The position numbers and the translations under genes are program-made. The notes beneath the pieces are model-generated. The model was not told where the DNA came from. It worked only from the letters and a program-made list of their open reading frames with translations, and did not search any database. From NCBI GenBank assembly GCA_018266475.1, contig JAFEAI010000054.1:1-39766 (forward strand): a DNA stretch of 39,766 nt. Reading direction: 5' to 3'. The stretch comes from Bacteroidota bacterium. Lineage in GTDB: Bacteria > Bacteroidota > Bacteroidia > Flavobacteriales_F > PHOS-HE28. Positions within the stretch are counted from its first letter, which is position 1, and every line of letters starts with the position of its first letter. Of this stretch, positions 1,411 through 30,589 are shown piece by piece.

Positions 1411-1980
1411 TCAGGCTGGCGTGTCGATGTGGTCCGTGAAGTTGGTGCGCGATTCCTTGGCCCGCAGCGCATCGATCAGGCGGTCCGCCTTTTCGATGGT
1501 GAGGTGCTCGTGGTATTTCGCGCCGCATTGCAGCATGGGGGCGGTGCCGCAGCTGCCTAGGCATTGCACGGCCCGCAGGGTGAAGAGGCCGTCGCGGGTG
1601 GTTTGCCCGGCCTTGATGCCCAGCTTGTGCTCCAGGTGCTCGATCAGGTCGTCGCTGCCGCGCAGCATGCACGGGGCCGTTTCGCACACGTCCAGCACGT
1701 GCTTGCCCACGGGCTCCAGGTGGAACATGCTGTAGAAGGTGGCCACCTCGTACACCTCCACGTATTGGATGCCCAGCAGGCTGGCCACGGCGTCCATGGC
1801 GGGCACGCTCAGCCACCCGTCGTTGTCGGCCTGCGCGATGTGCAGCAGGGGGATCAGCGCGCTCTTGGGGTGCTCCGCAGGGTAGTGCGTGATCACCTCC
1901 TTGCATTCGGCAAGCGCTTTTTCGCTGAAGGCGAAGGGGGCAATGCCAGCATTGCCGGGGGGGTGTGTTGCGTGCTCCAT
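1411..1980 (-). CDS. nuoE: NADH-quinone oxidoreductase subunit E
   Basis: This is the 24-kDa thioredoxin-like 2Fe-2S subunit of complex I, partner of NuoF in the NADH-oxidising arm. The 189-residue protein has the expected four ligands, Cys99 and Cys104 (CETAPC) and Cys140 and Cys144 (CLGSC). The ATG at 1980 gives a normal family length; a longer frame reaching 2097 only reads through the toxin gene in another frame. It lies directly downstream of a toxin/antitoxin pair rather than of nuoD. Its ATG overlaps the toxin's frameshifted stop codon by one base (TGATG); if the toxin frameshift is removed, the gap becomes 43 bases. Confidence 0.96.
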   Translation of the reverse strand: MEHATHPPGNAGIAPFAFSEKALAECKEVITHYPAEHPKSALIPLLHIAQADNDGWLSVPAMDAVASLLGIQYVEVYEVATFYSMFHLEPVGKHVLDVCETAPCMLRGSDDLIEHLEHKLGIKAGQTTRDGLFTLRAVQCLGSCGTAPMLQCGAKYHEHLTIEKADRLIDALRAKESRTNFTDHIDTPA

Positions 1981-2288
1981 CAGTGCATTGGTGCAAAGGA
2001 ATGCAGAATCGCCGCGATATTGCTCATTTGCGGTAGATATCCCTGCGGTGGCCCACCTTCCGGACGTTCTATGACGCGGACCGTGTCGTCCATGCAATAG
2101 ATCACGCGGTAATCACCGGTGCGGATCCGCCAAAGCGGCTCACGGCTTCCAGCAAGCTTTTTGCTTCCTGCGGGGCGGGGGTCCGTTGCAAGGGCCATGA
2201 TCGCTGGAAGCAGGCGGGCCACGGTGGTCTTGGAAAGAGTGCGGATCTCCTTGGCGGCCGGCTTGCTGATTTCGATGCGGTAGGTCAA
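1980..2288 (-). CDS. RelE/ParE-family toxin, probably frameshifted at its C-terminus
   Basis: The 102-residue frame begins with TTG and matches the RelE/ParE ribonuclease-toxin fold: an N-terminal helical pair, then GSREPLWRIRTGDYRVIYCM (about 47-66), the typical central strands. RelE family members usually end near residue 85-90 with a segment such as VGHRRxVYR. Here that segment (VGHRRDIYRK, then TGA at 2024-2026) is present but in the next frame; the annotated frame instead runs on to the nuoE start. Removing one G within the GAAGGTGGG stretch near 2055 would give an 87-residue canonical toxin. So the gene is either an inactivated toxin or a sequencing error. The TTG start overlaps the antitoxin stop by four bases (TTGA). 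Confidence 0.8.
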   Translation of the reverse strand: MTYRIEISKPAAKEIRTLSKTTVARLLPAIMALATDPRPAGSKKLAGSREPLWRIRTGDYRVIYCMDDTVRVIERPEGGPPQGYLPQMSNIAAILHSFAPMH

Positions 2289-2467
2289 AGCTTGCCGTCC
2301 GCTTTCAGGAGCCGTTGAAGTTCTTCCAGGCTGATCTTATCCGTATCCTTCCGGCTTTCGGCGATGATCAGGTCAAAGAGGTCTTCCATGGCCTCCTCTT
2401 CCCGGATGTCCAGCTCGTCCAGGTCGATCTGGATCAGGCGGCGGTGCCTTGCCTCGTCGTACAACAT
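2285..2467 (-). CDS. Small acidic antitoxin paired with the RelE-like toxin
   Basis: This 60-residue acidic protein (Glu/Asp-rich, for example IDLDELDIREEEAMEDLFD) precedes the RelE-like toxin and overlaps it by four bases, the usual arrangement for a type II antitoxin. I do not recognise the antitoxin family, and no DNA-binding motif is obvious. I chose the ATG at 2467 over the in-frame ATG at 2482 because AAAGGAGT (2472-2479) sits with GGAG five bases upstream, an unusually good ribosome-binding site for this phylum. The pair lies between nuoD and nuoE and is transcribed with them. Confidence 0.75.
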   Translation of the reverse strand: MLYDEARHRRLIQIDLDELDIREEEAMEDLFDLIIAESRKDTDKISLEELQRLLKADGKL

Positions 2468-2471
2468 GCTT

Positions 2472-2479
2472 ACTCCTTT
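2472..2479 (-). promoter_or_regulatory. Strong Shine-Dalgarno site of the antitoxin gene
   Basis: The minus strand reads AAAGGAGT here, with GGAG five bases before the ATG at 2467. Bacteroidota genes mostly lack clear Shine-Dalgarno sites, so this one helps decide the start and hints at efficient antitoxin translation or a foreign origin. Confidence 0.6.
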
Positions 2480-2503
2480 CATTGTCCGCTAGTGGGCTTC
2501 AGA

Positions 2504-2511
2504 TAAAGGTA
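2504..2511 (-). promoter_or_regulatory. Possible -7 promoter box for the toxin/antitoxin pair
   Basis: The minus strand reads TACCTTTA, one base from the Bacteroidota -7 consensus TAnnTTTG, with a TTTTCG stretch about 18 bases upstream. It lies in the 77-base gap between the nuoD stop and the antitoxin start, so the pair and the downstream nuoEF may have their own promoter. Confidence 0.4.
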
Positions 2512-2544: not shown

Positions 2545-3783
2545 TTACGCATCGAGTTCGCCGGCGATCACGTTCATGCTGCTCATGGTGAGGATGGCAT
2601 CGCTGAGCATGCCGCCCTTGATGATCTCCGGATAGGCCTGGTAGTAGATGAAGCAGGGGCGGCGGAAGTGTACGCGGAACGGGTTGCGCCCGCCATCGCT
2701 GACGATGTAGAAGCCGAGCTCGCCGTTGCCGCCCTCCACGCAGTGGTAGATCTCGCCCACGGGCACTTCCACCTCGCCCATCACGATCTTGAAGTGATAG
2801 ATCAGCGCCTCCATGTCGTTGTACACTTCCTGCTTGGGCGGCAGCACCCAGTCGGGCACATCGGCGCGGTAGGTGGACTTGTCGGCGATCTTGTCCAATT
2901 TCTCCAGGGCTTGGCGGATGATGGAGAGGCTTTGGCGCATTTCCTCCTGCCGCACGGTGAAGCGGTCGTACACGTCGCCGCTCTTGCCCACGGGGATGGC
3001 GAAGTCGAAATCCTGGTAGGAGCTGTAGGGGTCGGCCACGCGCACGTCATAATCCACGCCGGCGGCGCGCAGGTTGGGGCCGGTGAGGCCGTAGGCCAGT
3101 GCGCGGTCGGCAGGGATGGGCCCGCAGTTGATGGTGCGGTCCATGAAGATGCGGTTGCGCACCAGCAGCGCGTCGAACTCGTCCAGCACGGCGGGAAATT
3201 CCTTGAGGATGGCGCGGATGCGCTGCCAGGCCAGGTCGCTGAAGTTGCGCTCGAAGCCGCCTATGCGGCCCATGTTGGTGGTGAGGCGCGCGCCGCAGAT
3301 CTCCTCGTAGATCTCATAGATCTTCTCCCGCCACTGGTACACGTACAGGAAGGGCGTGGTGGCCCCGGCATCCTGGCTGATGATGGTGTTGCAGATGATG
3401 TGGTCGGTGATGCGCGAGAGCTCCATGATGATCACGCGCATGTATTCCACGCGCTTGGGCAGCTCGATGCCCAGGAGCTTTTCCACCGCCATGTGCCAGC
3501 CCATGTTGTTGATGGGGGCGCTGCAGTAGTTCATCCGGTCGGTGAGGGTGGTGATCTGGTAGAACGGCCTGCGTTCGCAGATCTTCTCGAAGGCGCGGTG
3601 GATGTACCCGATGGTCTGCTCGGTCTCCAGGATGATCTCGCCGTCCATGGTGAGCACGTTCTGGAAGATGCCGTGGGTGGCCGGGTGCGTGGGGCCGAGG
3701 TTGAGCGTGGTGAGCTCGCGCAGGCCGTCGCCCGCCACCTGGTCTTCCTTCCACAGGTCCTGTTGCTTGGTCGCTTGGCTCAT
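2545..3783 (-). CDS. nuoD: NADH-quinone oxidoreductase subunit D
   Basis: This is the 49-kDa subunit of complex I, forming the quinone-reduction site with NuoB. The 412-residue protein begins its conserved part with LNLGPTHPATHG (28-39) and keeps the hydrogenase-large-subunit-like core (MNYCSAPINNMGWHMAVEKL region) and the C-terminal IIAGELDA-type end. The ATG at 3783 overlaps the nuoC stop by four bases (ATGA), which argues for coupled translation; the upstream open frame to 4101 is only nuoC read in another frame. nuoE normally follows at once, but a toxin/antitoxin pair intervenes here. Confidence 0.97.
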   Translation of the reverse strand: MSQATKQQDLWKEDQVAGDGLRELTTLNLGPTHPATHGIFQNVLTMDGEIILETEQTIGYIHRAFEKICERRPFYQITTLTDRMNYCSAPINNMGWHMAVEKLLGIELPKRVEYMRVIIMELSRITDHIICNTIISQDAGATTPFLYVYQWREKIYEIYEEICGARLTTNMGRIGGFERNFSDLAWQRIRAILKEFPAVLDEFDALLVRNRIFMDRTINCGPIPADRALAYGLTGPNLRAAGVDYDVRVADPYSSYQDFDFAIPVGKSGDVYDRFTVRQEEMRQSLSIIRQALEKLDKIADKSTYRADVPDWVLPPKQEVYNDMEALIYHFKIVMGEVEVPVGEIYHCVEGGNGELGFYIVSDGGRNPFRVHFRRPCFIYYQAYPEIIKGGMLSDAILTMSSMNVIAGELDA

Positions 3784-4295: not shown

Positions 4296-4880
4296 TTAGT
4301 CGATCTTGTACTTGGTGAGCAGGTCCTCGTATTCCTTGCTGTAGCGGCGGCGCAGGCCCTCGTTCTGGGCCAGTTGCTGGATCTGCATGATGCCGTCGAT
4401 CACTTGCTCGGGGCGGGGCGGGCAGCCGGGCACGTACACGTCCACGGGGATCACCCGGTCGATGCCCTGCAGCACGCTGTAGGTGTCGAAGATGCCGCCG
4501 CTGCTGGCGCATGCGCCCATGCTCAGCACCCATTTGGGCTCGGCCATCTGGGTGTATACCTCGCGCAGCACGGGCGCCATTTTCTTGGCGATGGTGCCCA
4601 TCACCATCAGCAGGTCGCTTTGCCGGGGGCTGAAGCTGAGCCGCTCCATGCCGAAGCGCGCCAGGTCGTAGTGCGAGCTCATCAGGCTCATGAACTCGAT
4701 GCCGCAGCAGCTGGTGGCGAAGGGCAGCGGCCACAGGCTGTTCTTGCGGGCCATGCCGATCACTTTGTCCGCGCTGGTGGCGAAGAAGCCCTGGCCCGTG
4801 TAGCCGGGGGGGCCTTCCTGCAGGATGGTGGGCCGCTCGCGCTTGGGCGCTGCCGCCGCCTGGTCTTTCTGGTTGCTCAT
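4296..4880 (-). CDS. nuoB: NADH-quinone oxidoreductase subunit B
   Basis: This is the PSST subunit of complex I and carries the terminal 4Fe-4S cluster N2, which reduces quinone. The 194-residue protein shows all four ligands: the tandem Cys58-Cys59 (TSCCGIEFM), Cys124 (MGACASSGG) and Cys153 (VPGCPPRPE). The N-terminal ~30 residues are variable and Ala-rich. It starts four bases after the nuoA stop. Confidence 0.97.
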   Translation of the reverse strand: MSNQKDQAAAAPKRERPTILQEGPPGYTGQGFFATSADKVIGMARKNSLWPLPFATSCCGIEFMSLMSSHYDLARFGMERLSFSPRQSDLLMVMGTIAKKMAPVLREVYTQMAEPKWVLSMGACASSGGIFDTYSVLQGIDRVIPVDVYVPGCPPRPEQVIDGIMQIQQLAQNEGLRRRYSKEYEDLLTKYKID

Positions 4881-4884
4881 GTGC

Positions 4885-5247
4885 TTATTCCCACTTCAGT
4901 GCGCCCTTCTTGATCACGTAGAAGAAACCCGCCAACACAAAGGCCAGGAACACCAGCATTTCCGCCAGGCCGAACCAGCCGAGGGATTTGAAGGTGACCG
5001 CCCAGGGGTACAGGAAGATCACCTCCACGTCGAAGAGCACGAAGAGGATGGCGATCAGGAAGTATTTCACGCTGAAGGGCGCACGGGCGTTGCCGTGCTG
5101 CTCGATGCCGCACTCGAAGCTTTCGTCCTTGTGGCGCCCCCCGCGCTTGGGCCCGGCCCATGCGGCAAAGCCCAAGGCCGTGCCCACGAAGCCGGCCGCA
5201 ATGAGGACCTGGATGATCACCGGGAGAAAGTCGTGCGGAGCGCCCAT
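4885..5247 (-). CDS. nuoA: NADH-quinone oxidoreductase subunit A
   Basis: This is a small inner-membrane subunit of complex I. The 120-residue protein has three membrane segments (about 8-30, 60-82, 88-112) and the conserved loop with KDESFECGIEQHG (40-52) and the FDVEVIFLYPWA motif in the second segment (about 72-83). It is the first gene of the nuo operon; a promoter-like box lies about 48 bases upstream. Confidence 0.97.
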   Translation of the reverse strand: MGAPHDFLPVIIQVLIAAGFVGTALGFAAWAGPKRGGRHKDESFECGIEQHGNARAPFSVKYFLIAILFVLFDVEVIFLYPWAVTFKSLGWFGLAEMLVFLAFVLAGFFYVIKKGALKWE

Positions 5248-5294
5248 CTTGCCTTGAAATTGCGTGCGAACCTACGGTGCCCGCGCGTGCCTTG

Positions 5295-16445: not shown

Positions 16446-16937
16446 TTACTTTTTCCGGCGTTGCCCTTTGGAAACATACCGCGCGGACCCAGCATGTGCC
16501 TTGAATGCATGAAGTGCTTCGGCGGCATCCAACAAGGGCGGTGATACGTTCGGGAAATCCGCCTTATTGTTCGTTACCAGTCCATCCAAGCGGCCCGATC
16601 CCATCGCTGCCGAATATTGTGCCCCGTCCTCCAGGTCCAGGAATCCGCTGTTCGCCGACCAGGCAAAATCGGAGCGTTCCATCGGGACTACCTCCACAAC
16701 CTGCAATATCTGCAAGATTGCATACCTGACCCTGTTCAATTGCGGACCCGGCTTTCTCGCGCTCTTCTTTTTCTGCAATACATACAAGACCGTTGCAAGC
16801 GTGGCCGGCGTGACCAGTATTTCAGCTTTGCGGTGGAAGCCGAGGTCTATGAAATCACGTGCTTCCTGGTGAAGTGGTGGCCTTGCCAGCAGATGGTCCA
16901 AGATTATGTTGGTGTCAATCCAATACCTCGGAATCAT
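16446..16937 (-). CDS. PIN-domain toxin
   Basis: PIN-domain toxins are metal-dependent ribonucleases that stop growth by cutting RNA. The 163-residue protein has the first acidic residue in YWIDTNIILD (Asp8), an acidic cluster FLDLEDGAQYSAA (Asp101, Glu103, Asp104) and the last motif LVTNNKADF (Asp127), the arrangement of type II PIN toxins in Bacteroidota. Its ATG overlaps the antitoxin stop by four bases (ATGA). The pair lies between repeat copies A and B. Confidence 0.85.
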   Translation of the reverse strand: MIPRYWIDTNIILDHLLARPPLHQEARDFIDLGFHRKAEILVTPATLATVLYVLQKKKSARKPGPQLNRVRYAILQILQVVEVVPMERSDFAWSANSGFLDLEDGAQYSAAMGSGRLDGLVTNNKADFPNVSPPLLDAAEALHAFKAHAGSARYVSKGQRRKK

Positions 16938-17227
16938 GCACGGCTCCTTTTGTGTTTGTGCTGCTCCATCATGCGCTTGTAATGCTTGGTCTTTCGCAAT
17001 TCCTCACCGGCCCGATCGTCGGCTTCAAAATCTTCATCACTGAACCAATCCGCAAAGGCTCCGGCCAGTTCATATAGGCCCGAATGCTCTCCTTCCTTCG
17101 GCGCATCTTCATCTTGTGCCACCAAGCGTTCCACCTCCTTGCTCATGGATGTTTTGCGCTTGCGTCGTTTAAGCTGAAGCTCCGTTACCGTATTCGGCGA
17201 AAGGCTTAACGTGACCTTGCGTTTCAT
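16934..17227 (-). CDS. DUF6364-like antitoxin
   Basis: The 97-residue protein opens with MKRKVTLSLSPNTVTELQLK and a basic stretch RKRKTSMSKEVERLV, which resembles the ribbon-helix-helix-like start of DUF6364 proteins that accompany PIN toxins. The middle is acidic (FSDEDFEADDRAGEE) and the end is basic. Order and a four-base overlap with the toxin support the antitoxin role; autoregulation is expected but no operator could be identified. Confidence 0.75.
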   Translation of the reverse strand: MKRKVTLSLSPNTVTELQLKRRKRKTSMSKEVERLVAQDEDAPKEGEHSGLYELAGAFADWFSDEDFEADDRAGEELRKTKHYKRMMEQHKHKRSRA

Positions 17228-29324: not shown

Positions 29325-29402
29325 CCACAGCTGCAATAACAGACTGTAAGCACCCCCTGAAACAGGTGCAGGTGAAAGTAGAAACACCTAACCTTGATCA
29401 GG

Positions 29403-29669
29403 ATGAAGAAGAGCAGATTCACCGAGGCGCAGATCGTTGGGATGCTGCGCGAGCATGAGGCGGGAAAGAAGGTGGCGGACCTGTGCCGGGAGCACGGTGT
29501 GAGCCAGCCCACGTTCTACCAGTGGAAGGCCAAGTACAGCGGCCTGGACGCCAACCAGCTCAAGGAGTTCAAGGAGCTGAAGGCCAAGTATGCCCGGCTG
29601 GAGAAGATGTACACCGAGGCGCAGATGGACCGTCAGGTGCTTAAGGAGATCATCGAGGGAAAGTTGTAG
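29403..29669 (+). CDS. IS3-family OrfA (helix-turn-helix)
   Basis: The 88-residue protein has the IS3 OrfA helix-turn-helix ([21 protein letters not shown] and [19 protein letters not shown]) and a C-terminal leucine-zipper-like coil. An in-frame TTG at 29394 is an alternative start. Near its end the heptamer GGGAAAG (29657-29663) is in the right frame for a -1 ribosomal slip into orfB. Confidence 0.93.
29657..29663 (+). promoter_or_regulatory. Candidate -1 ribosomal frameshift heptamer in IS3
   Basis: GGGAAAG fits the X XXY YYZ pattern with the zero frame reading GGA AAG; a -1 slip enters the orfB frame before the orfA stop at 29667. Typical IS3 signals are A-rich, so this would be a weaker variant. 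Confidence 0.5.
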
Positions 29670-29692
29670 GCCCGGACGATAAGCGAGAGATC

Positions 29693-30589
29693 GTGCGCCG
29701 ACTGGTCGAACAGCGCCAGTACAGCGAACGCCGGGCCTGCAAGCTGTTGGTCTTGAGCGCGAGCGTGTACCGCTACGTGCCCAAGGAGAAGAACGATGCG
29801 GAGGTGATCGAACACATGATGCGGGTGGCGGAGAGCGAGGCGCAGTGGGGCTTCTCGATGATACGGATCCACATGCGCAACGAGGGCTGCAAGGCCAACA
29901 AGAAGCGTCTGCATCGGATCTACAAGGAGTGCAAGTTGCCCCAGCGCAAACGCACCAAACGCCGTATCCCCGAGCGGGTGAAAGACCCGATCGTGCTGCC
30001 CATCGGGCCGAACATCACCTGGAGCATGGACTTCATGCATGATGCCTTAGTGACGGGTCGCAAGTACAGGACCTTCAATGTGATGGACGACTTCAACCGG
30101 GAGGCCTTGTGCATCGCGGTGGACACATCCCTGCCCGCCCCCCGGGTGATCAGGGAGCTGGAGCAGCTCATCGAATGGCGTGGGAAACCCGAGCGCCTGC
30201 GGATGGATAACGGACCGGAGTTCATCGCGCAGGCGATGAAGGAATGGGCCGCGGCCAAGAGCATAGAGTTCATCTACATCCAACCCGGTCGCCCCATGCA
30301 GAACGGCTTGATCGAGCGCTTCAACAGGACTTACCGGACCGAAGTACTGGACGCTTGGATCTTCGAGTCTCTGGAGCAGGTCAGACAGATGACCCAGGAG
30401 TGGATGTGGCGCTACAACCATGTGCGCCCACACGCTTCGCTGCTCCGCCTCTCGCCCCGTGCGTTCCTGTTGAAATGTGGACAACTCCCTGCCCACTACG
30501 CAGGCTCACGCGCGGACTTCCCCACAGTTCAACAGGACATCCACAACACCACCACACCAAAAAGTACCTTTACAATGCACTGCGCCTAA
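29693..30589 (+). CDS. IS3-family OrfB transposase
   Basis: The 298-residue product, from the GTG at 29693, has the rve integrase core: Asp113 (TWSMDFMHD), Asp172 (LRMDNGPEF) and Glu208 ([12 protein letters not shown]), the D-D(35)-E spacing. The frame is open back to 29645, so it can be made as an OrfAB fusion by a -1 shift. The C-terminus [11 protein letters not shown] matches the family, followed by a ~40-residue tail. Confidence 0.93.

Follow-up and report, generated by a model that had tools for sequence, protein, structure and literature searches.

It seems likely that the nuo operon described here has acquired a type II toxin–antitoxin (TA) pair by insertion between nuoD and nuoE, and that this pair is now a decaying passenger whose toxin gene is frameshifted. 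The window (the whole 39,766-nucleotide stretch of DNA that was analysed, contig JAFEAI010000054.1 of GCA_018266475.1) forms a single contig in the genome assembly (283 contigs, 97.9% complete) of a Bacteroidota bacterium. Its minus strand carries, in order, nuoA-B-C-D, a 65-aa ORF, a RelE/ParE-like ORF and nuoE-F. The gene nuoA lies at 4885–5247, nuoD (for the 49-kDa subunit; PF00346, 2.2e-103; 75–94% identical to its congeneric counterparts) at 2545–3783, with its TAA stop codon at 2545–2547, and an intact nuoE (PF01257, 1.9e-53) at 1411–1980. Complex I is otherwise present in this genome, as far as tested; nuoH and three antiporter-type matches are on other contigs. From the end of nuoD, the intervening DNA consists of a 62-bp spacer (2483–2544) containing a putative promoter, an intact gene for the 65-aa putative antitoxin (2285–2482), and the toxin-like ORF (1980–2288), all read in the same direction as the nuo genes.

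The toxin-like ORF, of 102 aa, begins with TTG in a 4-base overlap with the antitoxin stop, and it matches the RelE/ParE family profile (PF05016, ParE_toxin, 3e-6; 28.2 bits against a cut-off of 23) over residues 5–72 only. The family-like part occupies codons 1–74 (2067–2288), and the profile of the toxin family also matches RelE/RelG chains in the PDB. Intact members in the genus are 85–87 aa long and end in a tail with a conserved Arg and Tyr. A like tail, VRKVGHRRDIYRK, is encoded together with its stop at 2024–2065, in a frame other than that of the window ORF, so that the family-like stop codon (2024–2026) is out of frame; the assembled gene is frameshifted near codon 74, where alignment with the intact copy of a congener (G001, Flavobacteriales MAG SJ123, contig JADLAI010000082.1) reveals a one-base difference in length. 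It is because of this frameshift that the ORF runs on through an aberrant tail (1980–2066) to end at 1980, its TGA (1980–1982) sharing one base with the nuoE ATG. The missing tail matters: its Arg and Tyr align with R81 and Y87 of Escherichia coli RelE, residues that take part in catalysis and whose double mutation (R81A/Y87F) almost abolished cleavage (PMC2807027). As these residues have been lost from the frame, the window toxin is probably inactive, and we would regard it as a broken relative of the RelE/ParE superfamily rather than a working member. The full-length domain with Arg and Tyr in frame, absent from the window copy, is found in the G001 relative (a match of the intact relative to TIGR02385 falls below that model's cut-off). 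Thus the RelE-like toxin described in an earlier note on this DNA stands as regards homology, but not as an intact gene, and addiction to the pair in the window genome becomes doubtful.

Could the frameshift be an error of sequencing or assembly, so that the nuo operon in fact holds an intact and active TA module, like that of G001? The evidence for it comes from a single MAG assembly, and if that is wrong the toxin could be active. The out-of-frame tail is complete and well conserved right up to its stop, which suggests that either the damage happened recently or there is none, and the G001 copy is itself intact. Against this, nuoA-F and the other long ORFs inspected (not an exhaustive set) are open, there is no long homopolymer at the site, the number of contigs suggests a short-read assembly, and further copies in the genus are also broken by stops or truncation (one each in G009, C131, and G001, C37, and another in G002). 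On balance we think an error rather unlikely. A quite different view is that the frameshift was an act of domestication that killed the toxin and, by ending the ORF on TGATG, restored stop/start coupling into nuoE. The shifted ORF does terminate precisely at the TGATG overlapping nuoE, and such an overlap is the common nuoD-nuoE state in the genus, but we estimate that about one frameshift in four would reach the TGATG without meeting an earlier stop, and we consider domestication very improbable.

The 65-aa product of the upstream gene is 68–69% identical to its G001 counterpart and 38–52% identical to eight other partner proteins, and the 4-base overlap between the two genes of the pair recurs in nearly all pairs of the genus in which a partner was identified. 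A small, upstream, overlapping and co-conserved partner gene is what is expected of a type II TA system, and it is from position and co-conservation alone that we call the protein a putative antitoxin. It has no named-family match in NCBIfam or PADLOC, and in Pfam only a sub-cut-off match to DUF1307; comparison with PDB sequences gave no significant match (best E 0.24), and its predicted structure (pLDDT 81, pTM 0.41) gave no Foldseek match at E ≤ 0.001. The partner is patchily distributed; a search of 247 genomes of the class found it in 22. Taken together, the two genes would constitute a type II TA module with a partner of unnamed family. Whereas the toxin family gives a whole-length profile match to the RelE/ParE type II toxins (PF05016; E. 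coli RelE, Mycobacterium tuberculosis Rv2866 and the archaeal RelE-type 1wmi), the window copy differs from these in being frameshifted before the Arg/Tyr tail, and its partner is not recognizably RelB.

The pair also appears to have its own promoter, as the earlier note had proposed from a near-consensus box. The putative −7 element TACCTTTA (2504–2511, minus strand) lies 29 nt 5′ of the antitoxin ATG and has one mismatch to TAnnTTTG, the Bacteroidota −7 consensus (PMC9723704). Taken alone it is weak, since about 0.2 of shuffled sequences contain such a box. Among 32 homologues (which are related, and hence not independent), 21 carry TAnnTTTG in the 60 nt that precede the antitoxin gene (shuffled mean 0.28), at distances of either 12–13 or 22–29 nt, and the window box falls at a distance where the homologues keep the motif. 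A promoter belonging to the pair is therefore supported by the comparison of homologues, and not by the window alone. A scan for promoters of the sigma-70 type gave no match, as expected for Bacteroidota.

How unusual is it to find genes between nuoD and nuoE? The junction could be read in 29 of the 45 genomes of the genus. In 20 of these the two genes overlap by 1 or 4 bases, and in four more they are separated by small gaps (1 base in G028, 7 in G004, 39 in G032 and 45 in G020), giving 24 species with no gene in between. The remaining five junctions hold gene-sized inserts: the TA pair in the window and in G001, a gene for a GxxExxY/PDDEXK_3 protein in G039, and a Kazal-like small ORF in G042 and G024 (the G042 product matches Kazal below the Pfam cut-off, the G024 product not at all). 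The G024 ORF (L036) is a homologue of the G042 one in which most cysteines have been replaced, and it is apparently decaying. No gap of more than 154 bp was present among 28 measured junctions of more distant Bacteroidota. Because the junction without the pair is the common state, we infer that the direction of change was insertion. The GC3 of the TA pair is 0.74, compared with 0.88–0.93 for the nuo genes. Flanking direct repeats (ATGC, noted by eye) are only 4 bases long, too short to be called a target-site duplication. In one further genome (G021, L040) nuoE has no preceding nuoD, the latter being on a different contig, and the operon is apparently split at this point. A Bacteroidetes MAG (L090) was considered as a further case of a pair between nuoD and nuoE and was rejected: its intact TA relative (4787–5252, plus strand) follows a nuoABCD string with no adjoining nuoE.

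The presence of a RelE-like gene and a small partner on the same strand between the two nuo genes, as described in the earlier note, is upheld; the pair is rare among relatives and its toxin homology is real, the opposite of what would have told against it. A mis-joined contig, which the note had also raised, is improbable, given the homologous pair that a second species carries at this junction. The note's functional interpretation has fared less well. It held that the pair might gain stability by sitting where its deletion would damage complex I, and the location inside a conserved operon, with a nuo gene on either side, together with the occupation of one junction by two related pairs, is in keeping with this. 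Junctions lacking the pair are nevertheless the norm, the toxin is broken in the window assembly, and six congeners that are at least 90% complete (G010, G014, G019, G025, G037 and G041) gave no nuoD and no nuoE match at the thresholds applied, one of them, G010, being a single contig of 99% completeness. On the strength of these six, complex I is dispensable in the genus, and nothing found here shows transcription of the operon to be dependent on the antitoxin. Retention of the pair by such self-protection seems to us extremely improbable.

If the pair was inserted, was it inserted once? A tree of the toxins alone left the place of the window copy unresolved, and it was a joint antitoxin–toxin tree of 80 pairs that placed the window and G001 pairs as sisters (support 100/91). 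In a tree of nuoD plus nuoE, on the other hand, the two hosts fall into separate supported clades, and a tree forcing them together was rejected (AU p = 5e-70, for a host group that was named after the trees had been seen). The nuoD plus nuoE tree needs two changes for the TA pairs and five for all the inserts. Since the TA pairs are sisters and the host nuo genes are not, the simplest history would be that a pair reached this junction twice, whether by insertion or by transfer. The alternative is that the pair was ancestral at this junction in much of the genus and has been lost from most lineages, a history that would be compatible with the decay in the window. The sister relationship of the two pairs suits this history, and their divergence (62% identity) is near that of nuoE (69%), but about ten losses, as counted on the tree, would be needed in place of two gains, and most of these losses would have to have restored a 1–4 bp overlap (though recombination with clean relatives could have done so). 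We see an ancestral pair as having a minor, though not negligible, share of the probability.

In the history that we prefer, a segment of about 564 bp comprising the TA pair and its own promoter would have been inserted at the nuoD/nuoE stop/start overlap in the ancestry of this Flavobacteriales-type species. The pair probably persisted because the site was compatible (same strand, at a gene boundary, with both flanking frames intact), and probably also through its addictiveness while it was active. A later frameshift would then have taken the conserved C-terminal Arg and Tyr out of the toxin frame, leaving a passenger in decay whose antitoxin gene is still intact. Expression of nuoE presumably takes place by read-through from the nuo genes, with or without a contribution from the promoter of the pair.

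The choice of a gene boundary seems to be a property of the TA family. Of the copies in the genus that are outside nuo, ten are followed within 30 nt by a gene in the same direction (as judged by a simple ORF-calling heuristic), and six of the ten overlap the start of that gene by 4 bases; the downstream gene, named by eye, resembles rlmN in three cases and a biotin carboxylase gene in others. Location at a boundary is therefore a habit of the family and nothing special to nuo. It is conceivable that small cassettes (the two related TA pairs, the GxxExxY protein and the Kazal-like proteins) have repeatedly settled at this junction in the genus, that one TA subfamily arrived there on more than a single occasion, and that the site is either targeted or selectively tolerated; we offer the idea tentatively, judging it slightly more apt to prove wrong than right.

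TA modules inside operons have been noted before (PMC6504116; PMC2701414). In Thermus thermophilus, an MNT-HEPN module is present in the lysine biosynthesis operon of strain HB8 and not in that of HB27 (PMC2701414), which is likewise a TA-type pair in a housekeeping operon of one of two close relatives, although the window has a different TA family in a different operon. The decay of chromosomal TA pairs is also documented, and the degenerating systems of E. coli have been reviewed (PMC7167474); these resemble the window pair in being chromosomal and having an inactivated toxin, but the latter lies in a respiratory operon, and its host lineage is an uncultured one of the Bacteroidota. None of the titles or abstracts found by our literature search describes a nuo operon with a TA pair in it. 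As both the decay of TA pairs and their insertion into operons are already known, the repeated use of one junction would be a modest twist, and the understanding of TA systems is unchanged by the window pair. What the locus does provide is a clear TA pair at a place where two genes would normally overlap translationally, together with relatives in which the site is empty: within one genus, a single junction occurs in empty, intact-TA, broken-TA and other-cassette versions, and these form a natural comparison of the tolerance of operons to insertions.

Finally, we draw attention to other features of the window. Two ORFs at 29394–30589 (plus strand) resemble, by eye, a transposase pair of the IS3 type, and near them are long ORFs of lower GC3 resembling RHS-type repeats (one was tested, and had no Pfam match). 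At 16446–17227 (minus strand) is a gene for a PIN-domain protein (PF13470) with a small overlapping upstream gene whose product has a weak match to DUF6364, an arrangement like that of a VapBC pair.
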